Assembly: GCF_033170385.1 (NCBI RefSeq)
Contig: NZ_CP126170.1
Coordinates: forward strand, 3,434,001 to 3,498,000
Direction: 5' to 3'
Origin: Xanthomonas rydalmerensis
Lineage (GTDB): Bacteria; Pseudomonadota; Gammaproteobacteria; Xanthomonadales; Xanthomonadaceae
DNA: 64,000 bases
This document shows, in pieces, positions 37,385 through 47,438 of the stretch. The position numbers were made by a program, and so were the translations under genes. How positions within the stretch are numbered: the first letter of the stretch is position 1; each line of letters opens with the position of its first letter. The notes under the pieces are model-generated. The model saw only the letters and a program-made list of their open reading frames with translations, was not told the DNA's origin and ran no database searches.

Positions 37385-37475
37385 GACTGCCGCTGCAGCG
37401 CGGCCGCCACGGCGGGCGCATCCGGATCGGCACCGGCCGCGTATGTCCTGGTGTCATCCCACCGGAGCGCCGTGC

Positions 37476-38264
37476 ATGCCGACGTCGACCGCCGCCTTCC
37501 CGTTCACCCGACCGTCCCTGCCGCTGGCCCTGGCTCTGGGCAGCGCCGCCCTGGTCGCCGCCACGCCGGCGCGGGCGATGCTGCACTACGAGGGCATCGC
37601 CTATGCCGCAGACGGCAAACAGGTGCTGTACCGCGAAAGCCACTGGGTGCGCGAGGATGGCGCGCGCCTGGTGCTGTACCAGTGCGCGGACGGCGCCGCG
37701 TTCGCGCGCAAGCGCGTGGACGACGGCAGCGCCGCGCCGGACTTCGAACTGGTCGATGCGCGCAGCGGCTACCGCGAGGGCGTGCGCCGCAGCGGCAGCG
37801 GGCGCGAGATGTTCAGCCAGGCCAAGGGCCAGGCCGAACGCCGCGCGCCGCTGCCGAAGAGCGCCCAGGCGCAGGTGATCGACGCCGGCTTCGACGCCTA
37901 CCTGCGCCAGCGCTGGGACAGCCTGGGCAGCGGCGCGCCGCAGCGCATCGCCTTCGTGCTGCCCAGCGAACTGCGCACGCTCGACTTCCGCATCACCCCC
38001 GGCCCGGCCGATGCCGAGGTGCAGCGCTACACGCTGAGCCTGGCCGCCTGGTACGGCACGCTGCTGCCCGACCTCAGCGTCGCCTACACGCGCAAGGACC
38101 GGCGCCTGCTGGAGTTCCGCGGCGTCGGCAACATCCGCGACGCACGCGGCCGCTACCCGAGCGTGCGCATCGAGTTTCCCGAACGCCTGCGCGGCCAGGC
38201 CGACGCCGGCGCGTGGGAGCAGGCGCTGCAGCAACCCCTGGTCGCGCAATGCAGCGCGCGCTGA
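37476..38264 (+). CDS. Exported protein of unknown function
   Basis: 262 residues with a signal peptide (about 1-34, ending ATPARA). The mature part starts MLHYEGIAYAADGKQVLYRESHWV and is mixed beta with many charged residues. Features: two cysteines (about residues 69 and 259) that could pair, RSGSGREMFSQAKGQ in the middle, and an LDFRITPGPADAEVQRYTLSL segment. I do not recognise the family; it looks like a stand-alone periplasmic protein. Ninety-one bases separate it from the RnfB-like gene. Confidence 0.75.
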   Translation: MPTSTAAFPFTRPSLPLALALGSAALVAATPARAMLHYEGIAYAADGKQVLYRESHWVREDGARLVLYQCADGAAFARKRVDDGSAAPDFELVDARSGYREGVRRSGSGREMFSQAKGQAERRAPLPKSAQAQVIDAGFDAYLRQRWDSLGSGAPQRIAFVLPSELRTLDFRITPGPADAEVQRYTLSLAAWYGTLLPDLSVAYTRKDRRLLEFRGVGNIRDARGRYPSVRIEFPERLRGQADAGAWEQALQQPLVAQCSAR

Positions 38265-38352
38265 GCCGCGCCACCAGCGCATTCACGCCGGCCCCTGCCG
38301 CACCCGCTACAACCATGCCTGCGCATCGCCCGCGCATCGACGAGGACACCTC

Positions 38353-38724
38353 ATGGCCAAGGCCTACCTGTGGTTCAACGCTGCGCTGTACGCGCTGCTG
38401 GCAGTCTGGTGCACGCTGCTGCCGGCGCAAACCGCCGCGGCGGTGGGCTATGTCGGCCTGGACCGCTCCGGCCAGTCCGAATACCTGGTCATCTACGGCG
38501 GCCTGCAACTGGGCATGGCCTTCCTGTTCGGCTACTTCGCCCGCACCGGGCAACTGCGCACCGGCTTGCTCCTGGCGCTGGCCTTCTACGTCCCCATCGT
38601 GCTCTACCGCAGTGCCAGCCTGTTGCGGCTGTGGCCGGTGGGCCCGACCACGACCGGGCTGGCCGCGTTCGAGATCGTCCTGCTGCTCGCCGCAGTCGTC
38701 CTGTGGCGACGCCAGCGCGCCTGA
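38353..38724 (+). CDS. Small four-helix membrane protein
   Basis: 123 residues with four hydrophobic helices (about 3-25, 44-62, 67-87 and 97-118). The pattern, with YLVIYGGLQLGMAFLFGYFAR between helices, resembles DUF4345-type small membrane proteins. Function unknown. It lies 58 bases before the ECF sigma gene and might belong to the same regulated region. Confidence 0.72.
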   Translation: MAKAYLWFNAALYALLAVWCTLLPAQTAAAVGYVGLDRSGQSEYLVIYGGLQLGMAFLFGYFARTGQLRTGLLLALAFYVPIVLYRSASLLRLWPVGPTTTGLAAFEIVLLLAAVVLWRRQRA

Positions 38725-38782
38725 GCGACGCCCGCGGCGAAAGCCTGTAGCATCGCGCCGACCTTCGCCACCGTCTCCAGGC

Positions 38783-39340
38783 ATGACCGAGTCGCCCGAT
38801 CACGACGAAGCAGGACAATTGCTGGTCGCCACCGCCACCGGCGACAGCGCTGCGTTCGAACGCCTGTACCGCACCACCTCCTCGCGCCTGTTCGGCGTGT
38901 GCCTGCGCATCGTGCCGCAGCGCGGCGAAGCCGAGGACGTGTTGCAGGAGGTGTTCTCCGCGGTCTGGCGCAAGGCCGCGCAATTCGATCCGCAGCGCGC
39001 ACGCGGCCTCACCTGGCTCACCATGATCGCCCGCAACAAGGCCATCGATTATCTGCGCGCACGCGCGCCTGCGCGGCAGTCGGTGGCGCTGGACGACGCC
39101 GGCGAGCTGCAGGACGAAGGCCGCGATCCGCTCGCCGACACCGAGTGGCGGGTGGCCGGCCGACGCCTGGACGTGTGCATGGGCGAACTGGAGCCGCCGC
39201 GCGGCGAGCTGATCCGCACCGCGTTCTTCGAAGGCATCACCTATGAGGAACTGGCCCAGCGCAGCGGCACGCCGCTGGGTACGGTCAAGAGCTGGATCCG
39301 CCGCAGCCTGGCCAAACTGAAAGCGTGCCTGGAACGATGA
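38783..39340 (+). CDS. ECF-family RNA polymerase sigma factor
   Basis: 185 residues. Region 2 (about residues 25-95) has FERLYRTTSSRLFGVCLRIV, the -10-binding EDVLQEVFSAVWRKA and GLTWLTMIARNKAIDYLRARAP; region 4 (about 125-183) has TYEELAQRSGTPLGTVKSWIRRSLAKLK for -35 binding. No region 1.1 or 3, as expected. The stop overlaps the anti-sigma start (ATGA). With the lipid-modification cluster that follows on the same strand, it is the likely regulator of those genes. Similar sigma/anti-sigma pairs control CFA-type genes in other proteobacteria during singlet-oxygen or membrane stress (RpoE-ChrR in Rhodobacter). Confidence 0.93.
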   Translation: MTESPDHDEAGQLLVATATGDSAAFERLYRTTSSRLFGVCLRIVPQRGEAEDVLQEVFSAVWRKAAQFDPQRARGLTWLTMIARNKAIDYLRARAPARQSVALDDAGELQDEGRDPLADTEWRVAGRRLDVCMGELEPPRGELIRTAFFEGITYEELAQRSGTPLGTVKSWIRRSLAKLKACLER

Positions 39341-40125
39341 ACGCCTCCGTGCCCGATCCGCAGGAAACCCCGCCGCCGCGCGACGTGCTGGCCGGCGAGT
39401 ACGTGCTCGGCGTGCTCGACGCGCAGGAGCGCCGTGCCGCCGAGGCGCGCATCGACAGCGACCACGAGTTCGCCGCAGCGGTGCTGCAGTGGCAACAGCA
39501 CCTGATGCCACTGGCCGACGAGATCGCCCCGGTGGAGGTACCCGAACGCGTGTGGGTGCGCATCCGCGCCTCGCTGGGCCTGGATGCGCTGGCGCCGCGC
39601 GCGCGCCCTGCCGCACCCGGGTTCTGGGACAGCGTGCGGACCTGGCGCTGGCTCAGCGCCGGCGGCTTCGCCACCGCCACCGCCTGCCTGCTGGCGCTGC
39701 TGCTGGCGCGCGCGCCGGTGCCGCCGCCGGCTACGCAGCCGCCGCCGGTCGCCACCACCACGCCCAAGCCCAGCGGCATCGCGATGACCTCCACGCTGAT
39801 GCAGGACGACGGCAAGCCCGGCTATGTGGCGCTGATGGACGCCGACAAGCGCAGCATCACCCTCACCCCGCTGGGCGGCAACCGCGACAACGCCCGCGTG
39901 CCTGAGCTGTGGCTGATCCCGGCCGACGGCAAGGCGCGCTCGATGGGCGTGTTCGACGAGGCCAAGGCGCGCGTGGCACGCATTCCCGATGCGTTGATGC
40001 CCTTGCTCAGCGACGGCGCCGTGCTGGCAGTGACCATGGAACCGCCCGGCGGCGCGCCCGGCGGTGTGGCCACCGGCCCGGTCGTGGCCAAGGGCGGCAT
40101 CAGCACCTTGCAACTGGCGCCGTAG
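39337..40125 (+). CDS. RskA-type anti-sigma factor
   Basis: 262 residues from the ATG at 39337. The cytoplasmic anti-sigma domain (about 10-85, LAGEYVLGVLDAQERRAAEARI) is followed by one membrane helix (about 102-124) and a periplasmic RskA domain (about 140-262, with PELWLIPADGKARSMGVF and AVTMEPPGG). It should hold the ECF factor inactive at the membrane until an envelope signal triggers release, by proteolysis in the better-known members. There is no HxxxCxxC zinc motif and only one Cys, in the helix, so it is not a ChrR-type sensor. Two in-frame upstream codons could also start it. Confidence 0.9.
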   Translation: MNASVPDPQETPPPRDVLAGEYVLGVLDAQERRAAEARIDSDHEFAAAVLQWQQHLMPLADEIAPVEVPERVWVRIRASLGLDALAPRARPAAPGFWDSVRTWRWLSAGGFATATACLLALLLARAPVPPPATQPPPVATTTPKPSGIAMTSTLMQDDGKPGYVALMDADKRSITLTPLGGNRDNARVPELWLIPADGKARSMGVFDEAKARVARIPDALMPLLSDGAVLAVTMEPPGGAPGGVATGPVVAKGGISTLQLAP

Positions 40126-40615
40126 ACAATTCCCCTTCTCCCATCGGGGCATGGATTTCCCTTCTCCCCTCGGGACCATGGCCCCCTTTTCGGGGGAAGG
40201 TGCCCCGAAGGGGCGGATGAGGGTACGGGCGAAGCCTCGTGGACCTGATTCCGCGAGCGCTTCGCTCCGTACCCTCACCCCAACCCCTCTCCCGATGGGA
40301 GAGGGGCAATAACGCCTCGGCGCTCCAGGCGCCTTGCATCGCCGCGGAGAAGCCGTGCCACGCGTAGGCTGTGCCGTTCTCACCTGAAAGAACACGGCGC
40401 GCATTCACCCGCTCACCACTCGTCTGCCGTCAGCATCGACGCCGCCATCGCGCATCCGCACGACAGCCGAGATCTTCCGATTCGCGCAACGCCTGCGCTG
40501 CGCTGTCGTGGCCGCAATGCCTCGCAAGCAGCTGTGCAGGGGAAATGCGACGCGGGTGCATCCGTCTTCCGGTTTCGCTCGTATCGCTCCCCAAGTCCCC
40601 CAATGAGACGCGCTT
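40126..40615. other. 490-base spacer between anti-sigma gene and lipid cluster
   Basis: The first 185 bases are a large palindromic repeat (listed separately). The rest (about 40313-40615) has no convincing gene on either strand and probably carries the promoter of the desaturase operon. I could not recognise a clear ECF-type -35/-10 pair by eye. Confidence 0.6.
40129..40312. repeat. Large palindromic intergenic repeat
   Basis: The ends are inverted copies (CCCCTTCTCCCATCGGG near 40131, CCCGATGGGAGAGGGG near 40292), and inner parts GGATGAGGGTACGGG and CCGTACCCTCACCCC also pair. A related copy is at 51817-51906. Such 'CCCTCACCCCAACCCCTCTCCC' elements are common in xanthomonads. Confidence 0.75.
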
Positions 40616-41593
40616 GTGCCGAGTCCCGTTCCGGAACCCCGCCCTGCCTCAACCCCGCCTGCGCCGCCTGGCCGCATCCTGCGCACCTTGCGGCGCTGGT
40701 TCGACACCAGCGCCGAGATCGAGCTGGACCCGGCGCGCGCCGACCGCATCGACTGGCTGCGCGCCGCGCCCTACATCGGCCTGCACCTGGCGTGCCTGGG
40801 CGTGTTCTGGGTCGGCGTGTCGTGGTTCGCCGTCGGCATGGCCGTGGCGATGTACGCGGTGCGCATGTTCGCGCTCACCGGCTTCTACCACCGCTATTTC
40901 GCCCACCGCGCGTTCAAGACCTCGCGCCCGGTGCAGTTCCTGTTCGCCGCGATCGGCGCCACCTGCGTGCAACGCGGGCCGCTGTGGTGGGCGGCGCACC
41001 ACCGCAACCATCATCGCCACACCGACACGCCGGCCGATCCGCATTCGCCGCGCCAGCACGGCTTCTGGTGGAGCCATAGCGGCTGGTTCCTGACCCCGCG
41101 CGGTTTCCGCACCGATTGGGAAGCGATCCCGGACCTGCGCCGCTTCCCCGAACTGCGCTTCCTCGACCGCTTCGACCTGCTGCTGCCGGTGCTGCTGGCG
41201 CTGGCGCTGTTCCTGCTCGGCGGGTGGCTGCAGCAGCACGTGCCGCAGCTCGGCACCGATGGCCCGCAGTTGTTGGTGTGGGGCTTCTTCGTCTCCACCG
41301 TGGCGCTGTTCCATGCCACCTTCACCATCAACTCGCTGGCGCACCGCTTCGGCAGCCGCCGCTTCGACACCCGCGACGACAGCCGCAACAACCTGTGGCT
41401 GGCGCTGCTGACCTTCGGCGAAGGCTGGCACAACAACCATCATTTCTTCCCCGGTGCCGCACGCCAGGGTTTCCGCTGGTGGGAACTGGACCTGACCTGG
41501 TATGGGCTGAAGGCGCTGTCGTGGACCCGCGTGATCCGCGAGCTCAAGCCGGTGCCGGCCGGGCTGGTGCGCGCACAGGCGCGGACTCGATGA
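40616..41593 (+). CDS. Membrane acyl-lipid/acyl-CoA desaturase
   Basis: 325 residues, GTG start (40616). Three histidine boxes bind the di-iron centre: HRYFAHR at 92-98, HHRNHHRH at 128-135 and HNNHH at 272-276. Hydrophobic segments at about 50-90 and 185-250 form the membrane anchor. This is the delta-9 desaturase type, which puts a cis double bond in saturated acyl chains. It starts the polycistronic cluster; the stop overlaps the next ATG. A supply of unsaturated chains is what the downstream CFA-type methyltransferases need. No cytochrome b5 domain is fused. Confidence 0.93.
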   Translation: MPSPVPEPRPASTPPAPPGRILRTLRRWFDTSAEIELDPARADRIDWLRAAPYIGLHLACLGVFWVGVSWFAVGMAVAMYAVRMFALTGFYHRYFAHRAFKTSRPVQFLFAAIGATCVQRGPLWWAAHHRNHHRHTDTPADPHSPRQHGFWWSHSGWFLTPRGFRTDWEAIPDLRRFPELRFLDRFDLLLPVLLALALFLLGGWLQQHVPQLGTDGPQLLVWGFFVSTVALFHATFTINSLAHRFGSRRFDTRDDSRNNLWLALLTFGEGWHNNHHFFPGAARQGFRWWELDLTWYGLKALSWTRVIRELKPVPAGLVRAQARTR

Positions 41594-42843
41594 GCCGGAT
41601 CGCGGTGGTGGGCTCGGGGATCGCCGGCCTCGGCGCGGCGTGGCTGCTGTCGCAGCGTCACGAGGTGACGCTGTACGAAGCGGCCGATTATCTCGGCGGC
41701 CATACCCATACCCATGCGATCGAACTGGACGGCGTGGAGTACGCGGTGGACAGCGGCTTCATCGTGTTCAATCCACAGCACTACCCGCTGCTGAGCGCGC
41801 TGTTCGCGCGGCTCGGGGTGGCGTCGCAGCCGACCACGATGAGTTTCTCGGTGCACGAGGAACGCACCGGACTGGAGTACAACGCCGGCACGCTCGATGG
41901 GCTGTTTAGCCAGCGCCGCAACCTGCTGTCGCCGCGCTTCTGGCGCATGCTGCGCGACCTCCGGCGGTTCTACCGGGAGGCGCCGCAGGCGCTGCACGAC
42001 GCCACCCTGGCGCAACTGACCCTCGGCGAGTTCCTGCAGCGCCACGGCTACTCCGAGGTATTCCGCGACGCGCACCTGGTGCCGATGGCCTCGGCGCTAT
42101 GGTCCTCGCCCTCGCGGCAGATCCTCGACTTCCCGATGCGCCAGCTGATCGGCTTCATGGCCAACCACCACATGCTGCAGGTCAGCGGCCGTCCGCAGTG
42201 GCAGGTGGTGCGTGGCGGCTCGAACAGCTATGTGCGTGCGCTGCGCAGCCGCTGGCGCGTGCGCGAGCGGCTGGGCACGCCGGTGCGCGCGCTGCAGCGG
42301 ACCGCGCACGGCAGCGTCGCGATCGCCTGCGATGCCGACACCCAGCAATACGACCATGCGGTGCTGGCCTGCCACGCCGACGACGCGCTGCGCCTGCTCA
42401 CCGATCCCAGCGAGGACGAAACCGAGATCCTCGGCGCGATCGGCTACCAGGACAACGAGACCGTGCTGCACACCGACGCGCGCGTGCTGCCGCGCGACCG
42501 CCGCGCCTGGGCCGCCTGGAACGCGCACGTGCCGGCCGATCCGGACGCGCCGTGCACGGTCAGCTACTGGATGAACGCCCTGCAGTCGCTGCAGGCGCCG
42601 CAGCCGTTCATCGTCAGCCTCAACCGCAGCGACGCGATCGATCCGGCCAAGGTGCTGCGGCGCATGCGCTACCGCCATCCGCTGCAGACCCAGGCGTCGG
42701 TGGCGGCGCAGGCACGCAAGGGCGAGATCCAGGGCCAGCGCAACACCTGGTTCGCCGGTGCCGGCTGGGGCTTCGGCTTCCACGAGGACGGCCTGCGCAG
42801 CGCGGTCGACGTGGCCGCGGCACTGGGGGTACCCTGGTCATGA
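41590..42843 (+). CDS. FAD-dependent oxidoreductase (amine-oxidase/desaturase-like)
   Basis: 417 residues. The dinucleotide-binding fold starts the protein: IAVVGSGIAGLGAAWLLSQRHEVTLYEAADYLGGHTHTH. The substrate region has VDSGFIVFNPQHYPLLSALFARLGV, and the C-terminal FAD segment is NTWFAGAGWGFGFHEDGLRSA. It belongs to the COG2907 family of NAD/FAD-binding proteins that almost always lie beside DUF1365 and CFA synthase genes. Members may oxidise or isomerise the acyl chain; related proteins act in methylated and furan fatty acid routes. Coupled to both neighbours by ATGA. Confidence 0.9.
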   Translation: MSRIAVVGSGIAGLGAAWLLSQRHEVTLYEAADYLGGHTHTHAIELDGVEYAVDSGFIVFNPQHYPLLSALFARLGVASQPTTMSFSVHEERTGLEYNAGTLDGLFSQRRNLLSPRFWRMLRDLRRFYREAPQALHDATLAQLTLGEFLQRHGYSEVFRDAHLVPMASALWSSPSRQILDFPMRQLIGFMANHHMLQVSGRPQWQVVRGGSNSYVRALRSRWRVRERLGTPVRALQRTAHGSVAIACDADTQQYDHAVLACHADDALRLLTDPSEDETEILGAIGYQDNETVLHTDARVLPRDRRAWAAWNAHVPADPDAPCTVSYWMNALQSLQAPQPFIVSLNRSDAIDPAKVLRRMRYRHPLQTQASVAAQARKGEIQGQRNTWFAGAGWGFGFHEDGLRSAVDVAAALGVPWS

Positions 42844-43709
42844 CGCTGATGCGCCGCGCTGCCGTGCCCGCCCCGCCGGCTGGCGCCGTCTCGACAACGT
42901 CGGCGGCGGCGGGCACGACCTTGCATGGTCTGCACAGCGCGGTGTACACCGGCTGGGTGCGGCATCGCCGCTATGCGCCCAAGGCGCTGGCGTTCCGTTA
43001 TCCGCTGTTCCTGCTGTACCTGGACCTGGACGAACTGGAGCAGGTGTTCGCGCGGCGCTGGCTGTGGTCGGTGAACCGGCGCAACGTGGCCGAGTTCCGC
43101 CGCAGCGACTATCTGGGCGACCCCGCGCAGCCGCTGGACGAGGCGGTGCGCGACCGCGTGCAGCAGCACACCGGCGAGCGCCCGCTGGGCCCGGTGCGCA
43201 TGCTCACCCACCTGCGCTACTTCGGCCACTGCTTCAATCCGGTCACGTTCTACTACTGCCACGATGCGCAGCAGCGGCTGCACAGCATCGTCGCCGAGAT
43301 CACCAACACGCCATGGCGGCAACGCCACGCCTACGTGCTGCCGATGGCAGAAGCGCGTAGTCACGGCGCCACGCACGCCTGGCGCTTCGCCAAGCGCTTC
43401 CACGTCTCGCCGTTCATGGCGATGGCGCACACCTACGCCTGGCGCTTCAGCGAGCCCGGCGCGCAACTGCGCGTGCACATGGACGTGCTCGATCCCACGC
43501 CGGCGACGACGCGGCGGCGCTTCGACGCCACCCTGGTGCTCGAGCGCCGCGCCCTCGACGGCGCCAGCCTGGCGCAGGCGCTGCTGCGCTATCCGGCGAT
43601 GACCCTGCAGGTCATGGCCAAGATCCACTGGCAGGCGCTGCGGCTGTGGCTGCGTGGCAACCCGGTGCACGACCATCCCGACCATTCCCTTCCGCGAGAA
43701 CGCCGATGA
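42840..43709 (+). CDS. DUF1365 family protein
   Basis: 289 residues. Recognisable DUF1365 blocks: LHSAVYTGWVRHRRYAPKALAFRYPLFLLYLDLDEL, LTHLRYFGHCFNPVTFYYCHD, EITNTPWRQRHAYVLP and the FAKRFHVSPFMAMAHTYAWRF region, with a C-terminal hydrophobic IHWQALRLWLRG. The function is unproven, but it is encoded with CFA synthase and the FAD protein in many proteobacteria, and related genes are induced by singlet oxygen in Rhodobacter. The Ala/Pro-rich first 28 residues are not conserved. Confidence 0.9.
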   Translation: MTLMRRAAVPAPPAGAVSTTSAAAGTTLHGLHSAVYTGWVRHRRYAPKALAFRYPLFLLYLDLDELEQVFARRWLWSVNRRNVAEFRRSDYLGDPAQPLDEAVRDRVQQHTGERPLGPVRMLTHLRYFGHCFNPVTFYYCHDAQQRLHSIVAEITNTPWRQRHAYVLPMAEARSHGATHAWRFAKRFHVSPFMAMAHTYAWRFSEPGAQLRVHMDVLDPTPATTRRRFDATLVLERRALDGASLAQALLRYPAMTLQVMAKIHWQALRLWLRGNPVHDHPDHSLPRERR

Positions 43710-45019
43710 ACGCTCCGCATGCGCCCTCTTCCGCCGCCGCGCTGACCCCGGCCGCCGCCCCGATGCGCGGTCTCGATCGCCTGCTGCGGCAACGCCTGCT
43801 CGCCACGCTGGACGGCCTGCGCGAGGGCCAGTTGCGCATCGAGGAGGCCGGCACGCTGACCACGCTGGGCGATGCCAGCGCCGGCGCCGACGCGCTGCAG
43901 GCGCACCTGCGCATCCACGACCCGCGCTTCTACCGCCAGGCCGCGCTCAACGGCAGCGTCGGCGTCGGCGAGGCGTACATGGACGGGCTGTGGGACTGCG
44001 ACGACCTGGTCGCGCTGGTGCGCCTGCTGGTACGCAACCGCGACCGCCTGGACGCGATGGAAACCGGTCTGGCCCGGCTCGGCGGCCTGGCGATGCGTGG
44101 CCTGCACGCGTTCGCGCGCAACACCCGCGCCGGCAGCCGCCGCAACATCGCCGCGCACTACGACCTGGGCAACCAGCTGTTCGAACTGTTCCTGGATCGC
44201 AACCTGATGTACTCCTCGGCGATCTTTCGCGAGGCCGACGCCGCCTTGGGCGAGGCTGCGCTGGAGCGCGCGGCCGAACGCAAGCTGCAGCGCATCTGCG
44301 CCAAGCTCGACCTGCAGCCGCACCACCACCTGGTCGAGATCGGCACCGGTTGGGGTGGCTTCGCGCTATATGCCGCCAAGCACCACGGCTGCCGCGTCAC
44401 CACCACCACCATCTCGCGCGAGCAGTACGAACTGGCCCGACAGCGCATCGCCGTCGCCGGGCTGTCGGACCGGGTCGAGGTGCTGCTGCGCGACTACCGC
44501 GATCTCGACGGCCGCTACGACCGCCTGGTCTCGATCGAGATGATCGAGGCGATCGGCCACCAGTACCTGGACACCTACTTCGGCAAGGTCGGCAGCCTGC
44601 TCAAGGACGACGGCCAGGCGCTGATCCAGGCCATCACCATCGAGGATCATCGCTACGCGCAGGCGCTCAAGTCGGTGGACTTCATCAAGCGCCACATCTT
44701 CCCGGGCAGCTTCATTCCCTCGGTGGCGGCGATGACCGGCGCGATCGGCCGCGCCAGCGACCTGCGCCTGTTCAACCTGGAAGACATCGGCCCCAGCTAC
44801 GCGTTGACCCTGCGCGCCTGGCGCGAGCGCTTCATGGCCAAGTTGCCGCAGGTGCGCGCGCTCGGCTACGACGAACGTTTCATCCGCATGTGGGAGTTCT
44901 ACCTGGCGTACTGCGAAGGCGGCTTCCTGGAGCGTTCGATCGGCGACGTGCACCTGTGGCTGAGCAAGCCGCGCGCGCGGCCGGCGCAGTTCGCGCCGGC
45001 GCTGGCGGACGACGCATGA
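43706..45019 (+). CDS. cfa: Cyclopropane-fatty-acid-phospholipid synthase family methyltransferase
   Basis: 437 residues. N-terminal lipid-binding domain (about 20-125, GSVGVGEAYMDGLWDCDDL), then NIAAHYDLGNQLFELFLDRNLMYSSAIF, SAM site VEIGTGWGGFALYAA (about 210-224), TISREQYELARQRI, SIEMIEAIGHQYLDTYF and the C-terminal NLEDIGPSYALTLRAWRERF, all typical of CFA synthase. It adds a methylene (or in some relatives a methyl) group across cis double bonds of membrane lipid chains. Because it lies in a sigma-controlled cluster with an FAD protein and DUF1365, its product may be processed further. Confidence 0.93.
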   Translation: MNAPHAPSSAAALTPAAAPMRGLDRLLRQRLLATLDGLREGQLRIEEAGTLTTLGDASAGADALQAHLRIHDPRFYRQAALNGSVGVGEAYMDGLWDCDDLVALVRLLVRNRDRLDAMETGLARLGGLAMRGLHAFARNTRAGSRRNIAAHYDLGNQLFELFLDRNLMYSSAIFREADAALGEAALERAAERKLQRICAKLDLQPHHHLVEIGTGWGGFALYAAKHHGCRVTTTTISREQYELARQRIAVAGLSDRVEVLLRDYRDLDGRYDRLVSIEMIEAIGHQYLDTYFGKVGSLLKDDGQALIQAITIEDHRYAQALKSVDFIKRHIFPGSFIPSVAAMTGAIGRASDLRLFNLEDIGPSYALTLRAWRERFMAKLPQVRALGYDERFIRMWEFYLAYCEGGFLERSIGDVHLWLSKPRARPAQFAPALADDA

Positions 45020-45561
45020 GCAACCTGATCAACTACCTCGCCCTGCAGGGGCTGTGGCTGGCCGCAGTGGTCGGCGCCGCGCACGGGCTGGCCTGGGCCG
45101 GCCCGGCGGCGCTGGCGCTGTTCGCGCTGTACCAGTTGTGGCCGCGCCGCCGTGCCCGCGGCGACGCCGCGCTGATCGCACTGGCGCTGCCGCTGGGCGC
45201 CGGTGTCGATGCCGCCATGCGCGCCGGCGACTGGGTGCGCTACGCCGCCGCGCCGCCATCGCCGTGGCCGCCGCTGTGGATCCTGGCGCTGTGGGCCGGC
45301 TTCGCGCTGACCTTCCAGCATTCGCTGGCCTGGGTGATGCGCCATCCCTGGCGCGCGGCGCTGTTCGGCGCCACTGCCGGCCCGTTGGGCTATGTGCTGG
45401 CCGCACGCGGCTGGCAAGCGGTGACGCTGGTGCAGCCATTGCCGCAGGCGCTGCTGGCGCTGGCCCTGGGCTGGGCCGCGGCACTGACCCTGCTGAGCCT
45501 GGCCACGCGGCGCCTGAGCGCCGCCGCGCCGGTGCTGTCGGCAACCGGAGCGGCGCGATGA
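45016..45561 (+). CDS. DUF2878 membrane protein
   Basis: 181 residues with about six hydrophobic segments starting LINYLALQGLWLAAVVGAAHGL. The pattern and RAGDWVRYAAAPPSPWPPLWILALWAGFALTFQHSLAWV match the DUF2878 family, which accompanies CFA clusters in many bacteria. Function unknown; perhaps it helps the lipid-modifying enzymes in the inner membrane. ATGA overlaps on both sides. Confidence 0.85.
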   Translation: MSNLINYLALQGLWLAAVVGAAHGLAWAGPAALALFALYQLWPRRRARGDAALIALALPLGAGVDAAMRAGDWVRYAAAPPSPWPPLWILALWAGFALTFQHSLAWVMRHPWRAALFGATAGPLGYVLAARGWQAVTLVQPLPQALLALALGWAAALTLLSLATRRLSAAAPVLSATGAAR

Positions 45562-46340
45562 ACGCCTGGCCGTTGTTGCATGTGGGCGTGTTCACCGTGC
45601 TGGTCATGCTCGCCGGCTGGGCCTGGCAGCGGCAGACCCGCAACGCCGGCGTGGTCGACGTGCTGTGGTCGGCGTGCATGGCGCTGACCGCGGTGTACTG
45701 CGCCTGGCGCGTCGACGGCGCGCTGCTGCCGCGCGTGCTGACCGCGGTGCTGGGTGGACTATGGGGCGCGCGCCTGGCCTGGCACCTGGGCGTGCGCGTG
45801 TTCGGCGATGCCCACGAGGATGGCCGCTATCGCGCCCTGCGCGAGCACTGGCACGGCGACCAGCGCAAGTTCCTGGCGTTCTTCCTCGGCCAGGCGCTGG
45901 TGGTGCTGGCATTCGCGGTGCCGCTGTCGGTGGCCGCGCACAATCCGCAGCCGCAGTGGAGCGTGTGGACCACCCTGGCGGTGGCGACCTGGCTGATCGC
46001 GGTGGGCGGGGAAAGCCTGGCCGACCGGCAACTGGCCGCGTTCCGCGCCGACCCGGCGAACAAGGGCAAGACCTGTCGCCAAGGCCTGTGGCGCTATTCG
46101 CGGCATCCGAACTACTTCTTCGAATTCGTGCACTGGTTCGCCTATGTGTTCCTTGCGGTGGGCAGCGGCGCGCTGTGGGTCGGCGTTGCCGCGCTGGGGC
46201 CGGCGCTGATGTTCGCCTTCCTGTACCGGGTCACCGGGATTCCCTACACCGAACAGCAGGCCCTGCGCTCGCGCGGCCGCGACTACGCCGACTACCAGCG
46301 CAGCACCAGCGCCTTCTTCCCCATGCCGCCGCGGCACTGA
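45558..46340 (+). CDS. DUF1295 (steroid-reductase-like) membrane protein
   Basis: 260 residues with about six membrane helices. The C-terminal block CRQGLWRYSRHPNYFFEFVHWFAYVFLAV, then RVTGIPYTEQQALRSRGRDYADYQRSTSAFFP, is the DUF1295 signature, related to steroid 5-alpha-reductase and isoprenylcysteine methyltransferase folds. It may reduce or modify an unsaturated lipid using NADPH; that is inference. Coupled by ATGA to DUF2878; 21 bases before the second methyltransferase. Confidence 0.87.
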   Translation: MNAWPLLHVGVFTVLVMLAGWAWQRQTRNAGVVDVLWSACMALTAVYCAWRVDGALLPRVLTAVLGGLWGARLAWHLGVRVFGDAHEDGRYRALREHWHGDQRKFLAFFLGQALVVLAFAVPLSVAAHNPQPQWSVWTTLAVATWLIAVGGESLADRQLAAFRADPANKGKTCRQGLWRYSRHPNYFFEFVHWFAYVFLAVGSGALWVGVAALGPALMFAFLYRVTGIPYTEQQALRSRGRDYADYQRSTSAFFPMPPRH

Positions 46341-46361
46341 GCCGCGCCAGGAGATCCGCCG

Positions 46362-47438
46362 ATGTCCAGCACCTTCGCCACCTCTTCCCCGCCCGCCGCG
46401 CCAGCCGAGCCGCTGGCCACGCGCCTGGCCGAATCCGGCCTGCTGCCCGACGCCGTGCTGCGCGCGGCGATGCGCCGGCTGTGCACGCAGCGCCTGCGCG
46501 ACGAGCGCGACGGCGGCGCCGACGCGGCCTGGGAACGCCAGCGCCTGCTGATCGAATCGCTGCGCGAGAGCGCCATCGCGATCGAGACCGACGCGGCCAA
46601 CCGCCAGCACTACGAAGTGCCGCCGCGTTTCTTCGAGCTATGCCTGGGCAAGCGCCTGAAGTACAGCAGTTGCTACTGGGATGCGAGCACGCCGGACCTG
46701 GACGCGGCGGAAGAGCGCATGCTGCAGCTGTACGCCGAACGCGCGCAGCTGCGCGATCGCCAGCGCATCCTCGAACTGGGCTGCGGCTGGGGCTCGCTGA
46801 CCTTGTGGATGGCCGAGCATTTCCCCGGCGCGCGCATCACCGCGGTGTCCAACTCGCGGCCGCAGCGCGAACACATCGAAGCGCAGTGCCGCGCACGCGG
46901 GCTGAGCAACGTCAAGGTCATCACCCACGATGCCAACACACTGACCCTGCCCACCGAGAGCTACGACCGCGTGGTCTCGATCGAGATGTTCGAGCACATG
47001 CGCAACTACCGCGAACTGCTCAAGCGGGTCAGCCACTGGCTGGTGCCGGGCGGACGGCTGTTCGTGCACATCTTCTGCCATCGCGACCTGGCCTACCCGT
47101 TCGAGGTGCAGGGCGAGGACAACTGGATGGGCCGGCACTTCTTCACCGGCGGCTTGATGCCGGCGGCCGACACCCTGCTGCAGTTCCAGGACGACCTGGC
47201 GATCGAACGCCGCTGGCTCCTGTCCGGCCAGCACTACGAGAAGACCGCCAACGCCTGGCTGCACAACCAGGACCGCCATCGCGATGCGCTGATGCCGGTG
47301 CTGCAGGCCACCTACGGCGCCGACGCCAAGATCTGGTGGCAACGCTGGCGCATGTTCTGGATGGCCTGCGCGGAACTGTTCGGCTACGAACAGGGCCAGC
47401 AGTGGGGCGTGGCGCATTACCGGTTTGTGAGGCGCTGA
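46362..47438 (+). CDS. Second CFA-like SAM-dependent methyltransferase
   Basis: 358 residues. SAM site ILELGCGWGSLTLWMAE at 136-152; AVSNSRPQREHIEAQC, SIEMFEHMRNYRELLKRVSHWL and GGRLFVHIFCHRDLAYPFE are typical of the branch related to coclaurine N-methyltransferase rather than true CFA synthases. The N-terminal lipid-binding domain of CFA is replaced by a different helical part (about 15-80). It ends the cluster, with its own spacing and a start context GGAGATCCGCCG. It could methylate the acyl chain, or an unsaturated intermediate, at a second step. Confidence 0.88.
   Translation: MSSTFATSSPPAAPAEPLATRLAESGLLPDAVLRAAMRRLCTQRLRDERDGGADAAWERQRLLIESLRESAIAIETDAANRQHYEVPPRFFELCLGKRLKYSSCYWDASTPDLDAAEERMLQLYAERAQLRDRQRILELGCGWGSLTLWMAEHFPGARITAVSNSRPQREHIEAQCRARGLSNVKVITHDANTLTLPTESYDRVVSIEMFEHMRNYRELLKRVSHWLVPGGRLFVHIFCHRDLAYPFEVQGEDNWMGRHFFTGGLMPAADTLLQFQDDLAIERRWLLSGQHYEKTANAWLHNQDRHRDALMPVLQATYGADAKIWWQRWRMFWMACAELFGYEQGQQWGVAHYRFVRR

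Follow-up and report, generated by a model that had tools for sequence, protein, structure and literature searches.

A candidate operon for methylated furan fatty acids in Xanthomonas rydalmerensis, with a promoter that relatives seem to serve through two different stress sensors

Introduction

In Rhodobacter sphaeroides and Rhodopseudomonas palustris, the pathway named after ufaD, ufaO and ufaM relies on a methyltransferase, UfaM, that methylates cis-vaccenate; on UfaD, a flavin adenine dinucleotide (FAD) protein that makes a methylated diene; on UfaO, a DUF1365 protein that adds oxygen from O2; and on FufM, which adds a second methyl group (PMC7380195). UfaM and FufM have the UniProt accessions Q3J4I7 and Q6NBA4 (PMC10940516), and an R. 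sphaeroides strain mutated in all three of ufaM, ufaD and ufaO has been made (PMC7380195). Here, a window of 64,000 nucleotides from the 5.04 Mb single-contig genome of Xanthomonas rydalmerensis (assembly GCF_033170385.1, contig NZ_CP126170.1, positions 3,434,001 to 3,498,000, forward strand) is analysed for a cluster in which an extracytoplasmic function (ECF) sigma factor and its anti-sigma factor precede seven lipid genes: a desaturase, an FAD oxidoreductase, a DUF1365 protein, a methyltransferase of the cyclopropane fatty acid (CFA) synthase family, a DUF2878 protein, a DUF1295 protein and a second methyltransferase. It is fairly likely that these genes form a stress-induced operon for methyl or dimethyl furan fatty acids of membrane phospholipids, and the product would probably be such a furan chain rather than a cyclopropane one. 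Related bacteria seem to run the same lipid operon through two different stress sensors and one promoter.

The link to furan fatty acid enzymes, already drawn in the original prediction, is borne out by the FAD, DUF1365 and CFA-like proteins, which match the UfaD, UfaO and UfaM types and whose genes stand in a row, as they do in R. palustris and in Halomonas. A second methyltransferase is also common to both systems; unlike the Rhodobacter/Rhodopseudomonas pathway, the window gathers these genes into one operon together with its own desaturase, DUF2878 and DUF1295, and with a regulator of the RskA type.

The closest published locus is the nine-gene cluster smlt2375-smlt2367 of Stenotrophomonas maltophilia, which includes a desaturase, an oxidoreductase, two CFA-type enzymes and, in last place, a lipocalin (PMC11832516, 2025). 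Its genes rise 165-697 fold in a chrR mutant and drop again in a mutant that lacks the sigma gene too; deletion of the cluster nearly reverts the menadione tolerance and ceftazidime susceptibility of the chrR mutant (PMC11832516). Gene kinds and order agree with the window wherever the paper names them, and sigma control is experimental there; by its description the Stenotrophomonas cluster, with rpoEc-chrR-chrA, has a divergent ChrR-type pair and a terminal lipocalin, whereas the pair in the window is collinear and RskA-type and the window has no lipocalin match. Judged by gene content and order, the cluster in the window is the RskA-associated form of this published one. Within the family Xanthomonadaceae, 19 of 22 ChrR-type loci have a lipocalin after the last methyltransferase, and 11 of the 22 have a Smlt2375-like protein ahead of the desaturase. 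No report of furan fatty acids in Stenotrophomonas was found in the open-access literature, nor, by title and abstract in the same literature, in the lipids of Xanthomonas-type bacteria; the word "furan" is absent from the main text of PMC11832516.

Two further systems bear on regulation. In Pseudomonas syringae, the RpoE-ChrR core regulon with PSPTO_1043 likewise puts an ECF factor in charge of FAD, DUF1365-position and CFA-type genes, and promoters resembling TGATCC-N16-CGTA are close to the one found here; the sensor there is ChrR-type, unlike the RskA of the window, and the set as described holds no desaturase or second methyltransferase (PMC5507510). With the SigK-RskA systems of Mycobacterium and Yersinia, the window shares an RskA_C anti-sigma factor, two sigma cysteines at about the same numbers and self-regulation, which is predicted here (PMC7509140); mycobacterial sigK regulates itself from the Rv0449c promoter. 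No mpt83-type gene is seen beside the pair in the window, where the predicted targets are instead the lipid operon and probably msrP. Enzymes and regulator families alike are known; the locus would join them in a fuller operon, over whose conserved promoter the sensor has apparently been exchanged repeatedly.

Results and Discussion

Enzymes of the UfaD, UfaO and UfaM types

The FAD protein matches Pfam Amino_oxidase and NAD_binding_8 above cut-off and adjoins the DUF1365 gene, the arrangement that marks UfaD; alignments of its family extend to copies outside the gammaproteobacteria that lie beside DUF1365 and ChrR pairs. The DUF1365 protein scores 288 bits (cut-off 25) for the domain of UfaO, and its structure model (m5849dcc1b5c7) is of high confidence, mostly beta with a long C-terminal helix, and has weak fold matches to spirocyclase, fatty-acid-binding-like and nitrobindin barrels. 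The desaturase matches the SCD1 type at 91 bits.

The most telling change lies in the CFA-like enzyme. Escherichia coli Cfa holds bicarbonate through Glu239, His266 and Tyr317 (PMC11387697). In the window's enzyme (E. coli numbering) Glu239 and Tyr317 are kept, His266 is replaced by Gln, His240 by Ala and Cys139 by Ser, so that the ligand set of a cyclopropane synthase is incomplete; loss of the canonical His266, together with linkage to UfaD- and UfaO-type genes, is what we take as the mark of a UfaM-type protein in the CFA family, and the window's enzyme shows both. Gln occupies position 266 in 185 of 186 readable copies from FAD-DUF1365 loci: 95/95 in the family (one copy, L070, has its FAD gene beyond the contig end), 35/36 in the class and 55/55 in a wide set in which 2 of 57 copies are gapped there. 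Ala is found at 240 in 95 family, 34 class and 54 wide-set copies, and Cys139 is kept in 5 of the 36 class copies. By comparison, 20 of 20 control proteins of the CFA family, encoded at a distance from FAD genes or in genomes that lack them (eight near E. coli Cfa, 12 at about the distance of the window protein), have His266 and are also canonical at 139, 239, 240 and 317. The His-to-Gln rule was derived in this analysis and has no paper as its source; by species name, neither R. sphaeroides nor R. palustris is among the 80 loci chosen by likeness to an alphaproteobacterial query. Because a bicarbonate ligand is gone, ring closure would be less likely, and loss of the proton from elsewhere would be expected, as in UfaM; the Halomonas UfaM, encoded beside ufaD and ufaO, gives 11-methyloctadec-12-enoate in E. 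coli (PMC12089945). The active-site change thus lends support to the earlier suggestion of a product beyond cyclopropanation. It would also provide a one-residue test, His266 or Gln, separating cyclopropane-type from furan-type enzymes; the first methyltransferase here is easily labelled a cyclopropane synthase, as happened in PMC11832516.

The same residues bear on the alternative that the locus is an ordinary cyclopropane cluster, in which both methyltransferases close rings while the remaining genes provide or adjust the unsaturated substrate. Both enzymes do match the CMAS family over cut-off, and they are the only proteins of the genome matching E. coli Cfa at E 1e-20 (a third CMAS match lies just above cut-off, at 36.7 bits), so these two would be the probable source of any cyclopropane chains in the strain. 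The alternative is nevertheless improbable in view of the three substitutions set against uniformly canonical controls, the close linkage of the CFA-like gene to UfaD- and UfaO-like genes, and the nearest relatives of the second enzyme.

The last methyltransferase

The best solved relatives of the second methyltransferase are the plant coclaurine, pavine and tetrahydroprotoberberine N-methyltransferases, with 255 bits for 6gkv versus 90 bits for E. coli CFA synthase. On these scores a second ordinary CFA synthase was rejected, and the label of a second CFA-like methyltransferase in the original prediction had to be replaced by one nearer to coclaurine N-methyltransferase. A methyltransferase of the same kind (45-54% identity) was found no more than about 4 kb from the FAD gene in 27 out of 86 loci (80 chosen by likeness to an alphaproteobacterial query and six others), mostly from other proteobacteria; 23 of the 27 have DUF1295. 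Across the 86 loci, ChrR is nearby in 57 and RskA in four. The plant protein LIME1 is one that we take to be coclaurine-methyltransferase-like. FufM is 38% identical to this protein (Arabidopsis AT4G33110/LIME1; PMC10940516). A FufM function, forming dimethyl-furan chains, is proposed because of the coclaurine-type likeness, the identity between FufM and LIME1, and the linkage to FAD genes in the 27 loci.

An alternative that we regard as unlikely has the operon end at a mono-methyl furan acid (or a methyl diene), with the last methyltransferase acting elsewhere, for example on an amine head group. The nearest solved relatives do methylate nitrogen, the likeness to FufM itself passes through LIME1, and by gene numbers the fufM of Rhodopseudomonas (RPA0924) does not adjoin ufaM-ufaO-ufaD (RPA2569-2571) (PMC7380195). 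On the other side, the enzyme accompanies furan genes in distant proteobacteria, as the 27 loci show, and has no close relative in G111 and G186, two genomes of the same genus that are without the FAD gene.

A sigma pair of the RskA type

The anti-sigma factor matches RskA_C (PF10099) at 72 bits (cut-off 29.4) and is therefore an RskA_C anti-sigma factor adjoining an ECF sigma factor. The best NCBIfam model for the latter is the generic NF009186 (350.8 bits, cut-off 267), and the NCBIfam SigK model reaches 135.7 bits, below its cut-off of 226. Cysteines 133 and 183 of Mycobacterium SigK affect its hold by RskA (PMC7509140); Cys132 and Cys182 of the window's sigma factor lie at about the places of these redox cysteines, an equivalence judged from numbering, with SigK outside the alignment. 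Cysteines at 40, 132 and 182 are present in 36 of 36 RskA-type sigma factors and in none of 22 ChrR-type ones. No ChrR anti-sigma factor in the genome matched over cut-off (best 20.3 bits, cut-off 124.5), and none appeared at E 1e-12 using the family's own ChrR alignment. By these Pfam and NCBIfam matches the pair belongs with RskA/SigK and not with the ChrR type of Rhodobacter.

One promoter motif at both operons

A promoter-like motif, GCATCC-N16-CGTA, has exactly two matches in the window with both strands searched, one before the sigma operon and one before the desaturase, and it also occurs upstream of sigma genes in many related loci. The lipid operon is likely to be under the control of this sigma factor, and the shared motif supports the ECF control that had been predicted for the lipid genes. 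Ninety-four family loci were sorted by neighbour into type A (35, collinear RskA-type pair), type B (22, ChrR-type pair) and type C (37, neither adjacent). Within 150 bases of the desaturase, an exact site is present in 26/35 A, 22/22 B and 4/37 C loci, against 0.0, 0.005 and 0.035 expected by first-order resampling. Nine A loci are without an exact site: seven, from one genus, have GCATCT, and two have a site running past the assumed start. After that genus had shown GCATCT, the motif was broadened to GCATC[CT]; among 92 family genomes (two short contigs excluded), such a site is found upstream of the desaturase in 59 of 61 with an RskA-type (at least 300 bits) or ChrR-type pair anywhere and in 0 of 31 without (Fisher 1.8e-22, kinship ignored), a test that overstates independence because the loci are related and whose 300-bit limit was chosen after the scores were seen, two points that count against our interpretation. 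All four C loci with the exact site have their pair elsewhere in the genome; adjacency was accordingly rejected as the sole sign of control. Two counter-cases are L087, with a motif match at -169 and no pair, and L055, with a lower-scoring RskA (222 bits) and no site.

In the whole genome the motif has 12 exact matches versus five for a reversed control, so single sites are weak evidence. Another view, very improbable on the whole, is that the lipid operon does not answer to this sigma factor, that the pair regulates itself alone and that the motif common to both operons belongs to a different sigma factor; the weakness of single sites and the 490-base gap with an inverted repeat between the two gene sets would suit it. 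It is opposed by the presence of the site at both operons and nowhere else in 64 kb, and by the way the site tracks RskA or ChrR pairs across genomes, including those whose pair is elsewhere.

One exact site lies 54 bases before the start of msrP, a methionine sulfoxide reductase gene (G000:C1, about 2249240-2250285, minus strand; L141), and points to, without proving, oxidative damage as the signal. With one strict pattern, a site together with an msrP start was found in 10 of 198 family genomes, six of them of the same genus and four without the FAD gene; all 10 have an RskA protein, lower-scoring in two, compared with 60 of 198 genomes overall. In G111 and G186, close matches to four things are missing at once: the last methyltransferase, the FAD gene, the RskA protein and the msrP site. 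At the type C loci L050, L054, L062, L063, L065, L073 and L089, which have no pair, GCATCC-N17-CGTA stands upstream of the desaturase. The genes upstream in type C loci are OsmC-like, pseudouridine synthase or kbl-like, and another regulator may act there.

A possible exchange of two sensors over one promoter

Sigma factors are 46-100% identical within the RskA type, 47-95% within the ChrR type and 22-33% between types, and in the sigma tree the two types fall on opposite sides of one branch. In a tree of five lipid proteins (FastTree, 90 rows; local support, no bootstrap), the label switches six times between RskA and ChrR, or ten times when "none" is counted. A bolder proposal, for which our doubts slightly outweigh our belief, is that unrelated sensors (membrane RskA with a redox-cysteine SigK; the zinc-cupin ChrR with its own sigma factor) have repeatedly been swapped over one furan operon because both sigma factors read GCATCC-N16-CGTA, and that the operon is a complete dimethyl-furan pathway, the making of the double bond included. 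Should the desaturase work at C9 of C16 chains, the pathway would give furan acids of the 7M5/7D5 type (methyl esters near 294 and 308 Da), whose carboxyl arm is shorter than that of the known 9M5/9D5. Such loci would offer a natural set of cases in which the sensor was replaced and the promoter kept, so that regulator swapping without target rewiring becomes directly testable.

Proposed pathway

From the sequence we infer the following signal, promoter use, reactions and product. The SigK-type sigma factor would be held by the membrane protein RskA and released upon an envelope or redox signal; once released, it would read two GCATCC-N16-CGTA promoters, that of its own operon (37476-40125) and that of the lipid operon (40616-47438). 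The desaturase would introduce a cis double bond, which the UfaM-like enzyme would methylate without ring closure; the UfaD-like FAD enzyme would then give a methylated conjugated diene, the UfaO-like DUF1365 protein would add O2-derived oxygen to yield the furan, and the FufM-like last methyltransferase would add the second methyl group, with DUF2878 and DUF1295 as putative accessory proteins.

Several observations weigh against this scheme. In the alignment, the second methyltransferase has the Glu, His, His and Tyr that are canonical in CFA synthase, and with them all three bicarbonate ligands of cyclopropane synthases; its assignment to FufM takes two steps, from FufM to LIME1 in the published work and from the methyltransferase to the plant enzymes here. 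One of the 186 copies of the CFA-like enzyme (L206) keeps His266. The likeness to UfaM, UfaD, UfaO and FufM rests on domain, order and signature. The Stenotrophomonas paper reads the same genes, smlt2371 and smlt2368, as cyclopropane synthases, and in S. maltophilia tolerance of singlet oxygen or hydrogen peroxide did not depend on the regulator (PMC11832516). This published reading and the ligands kept by the second enzyme also speak for the cyclopropane alternative.

If the furan pathway is correct, the reading of a published cluster that affects menadione tolerance and ceftazidime susceptibility in an opportunistic pathogen would change. One operon with enzymes of the desaturase, UfaD, UfaO, UfaM and FufM types would, moreover, be a ready source of dimethyl furan fatty acids, which are antioxidants; plant synthesis of furan fatty acids is largely unexplained (PMC10940516).

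Distribution and conservation

By hand count, the last methyltransferase has a close match (at least 60% identity) in 106 of 198 family genomes, other listed matches being at most 36% identical; the FAD protein is found in 109/198. Regions were taken from 100 of the 105 other genomes with the last methyltransferase, and 94 contain the desaturase; of the remaining six, the contig ends first in five, and the methyltransferase is alone in L048. In 94 of 94 family loci with the desaturase, the detected lipid genes keep the window's order and strand; DUF2878 was undetected in 13 and DUF1295 in six.

Beyond the family, the FAD protein occurs in 81/274 class and 72/249 phylum genomes, both counts including family members. 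Among 40 picked class loci, 38 have the FAD, DUF1365 and CFA-like genes; seven show the whole series in collinear order, beginning with the desaturase and ending with the last methyltransferase (DUF2878 unmatched in one), two more have the set with an insertion of about 4 kb (one without a DUF1295 match), and three are permuted. In two loci of a single family (L191 and L192), the DUF1365 and CFA-like genes are separated by about 4 kb of other sequence. This wide occurrence within and beyond the family makes the cluster an old, shared module; uniqueness to this genome was rejected on the family and class loci. The suggestion that this version is special in having its own desaturase and a second methyltransferase does not stand: the set is kept within the family, occurs in further gammaproteobacterial families and has a published Stenotrophomonas counterpart (PMC11832516).

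Layout of the locus

The nine genes named in the original prediction are all present at the expected place and in order, collinear by checked reading frames, and each has at least one Pfam match above cut-off (in gene order: Sigma70_r2/r4, RskA_C, FA_desaturase, Amino_oxidase, DUF1365, CMAS, DUF2878, DUF1295, CMAS). The ATGA overlaps claimed among the first six lipid genes were found, five in number and of 4 bases each; the sigma and anti-sigma genes also overlap by ATGA, and 21 bases separate the sixth lipid gene from the start of the seventh. Two further genes lie upstream of the sigma gene, behind its copy of the promoter-like site (Table 1).

Table 1. Features of the sigma and lipid operons (window positions)
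Feature	Position	Strand	Basis
Predicted ECF promoter 1, GCATCC-N16-CGTA, before sigma-factor operon	37418..37443	+	Exact motif match
262-aa protein, N terminus signal-like by eye	37476..38264	+	No Pfam/NCBIfam match
DUF4345-like protein	38353..38724	+	22.2 bits, below cut-off of 26.5
ECF sigma factor, SigK-like	38783..39340	+	Pfam, NCBIfam, Cys132 and Cys182
RskA-type anti-sigma factor	39337..40125	+	RskA_C, 72 bits
Long imperfect inverted repeat, 29-nt arms, 79%	40129..40310		Repeat between anti-sigma and desaturase genes
Predicted ECF promoter 2, GCATCC-N16-CGTA, 32 nt before desaturase start	40558..40583	+	Exact match; kept in relatives
Membrane acyl-chain desaturase, SCD1/Ole1 type, GTG start	40616..41593	+	Pfam; three His boxes by eye
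FAD oxidoreductase, UfaD-like	41590..42843	+	Pfam, family alignments
DUF1365 protein, UfaO-like	42840..43709	+	Pfam, predicted structure
CFA-family methyltransferase, UfaM-like, Gln replacing bicarbonate ligand His266	43706..45019	+	Pfam, residue alignment
DUF2878 protein	45016..45561	+	Pfam
DUF1295 protein, steroid-reductase/ICMT-like	45558..46340	+	Pfam
Coclaurine-N-methyltransferase-like methyltransferase, proposed FufM-like	46362..47438	+	Pfam, relatives of solved structure, linkage

In 21 of 35 RskA-type loci a counterpart of the 262-aa protein lies ahead of the sigma gene; in the 11 ChrR-type loci mentioned above it lies ahead of the desaturase, in the place of Smlt2375. The gap between the anti-sigma and desaturase genes has the promoter-like site at its end; the inverted repeat within it may be an inserted repeat element, because the length of the gap differs among close relatives.

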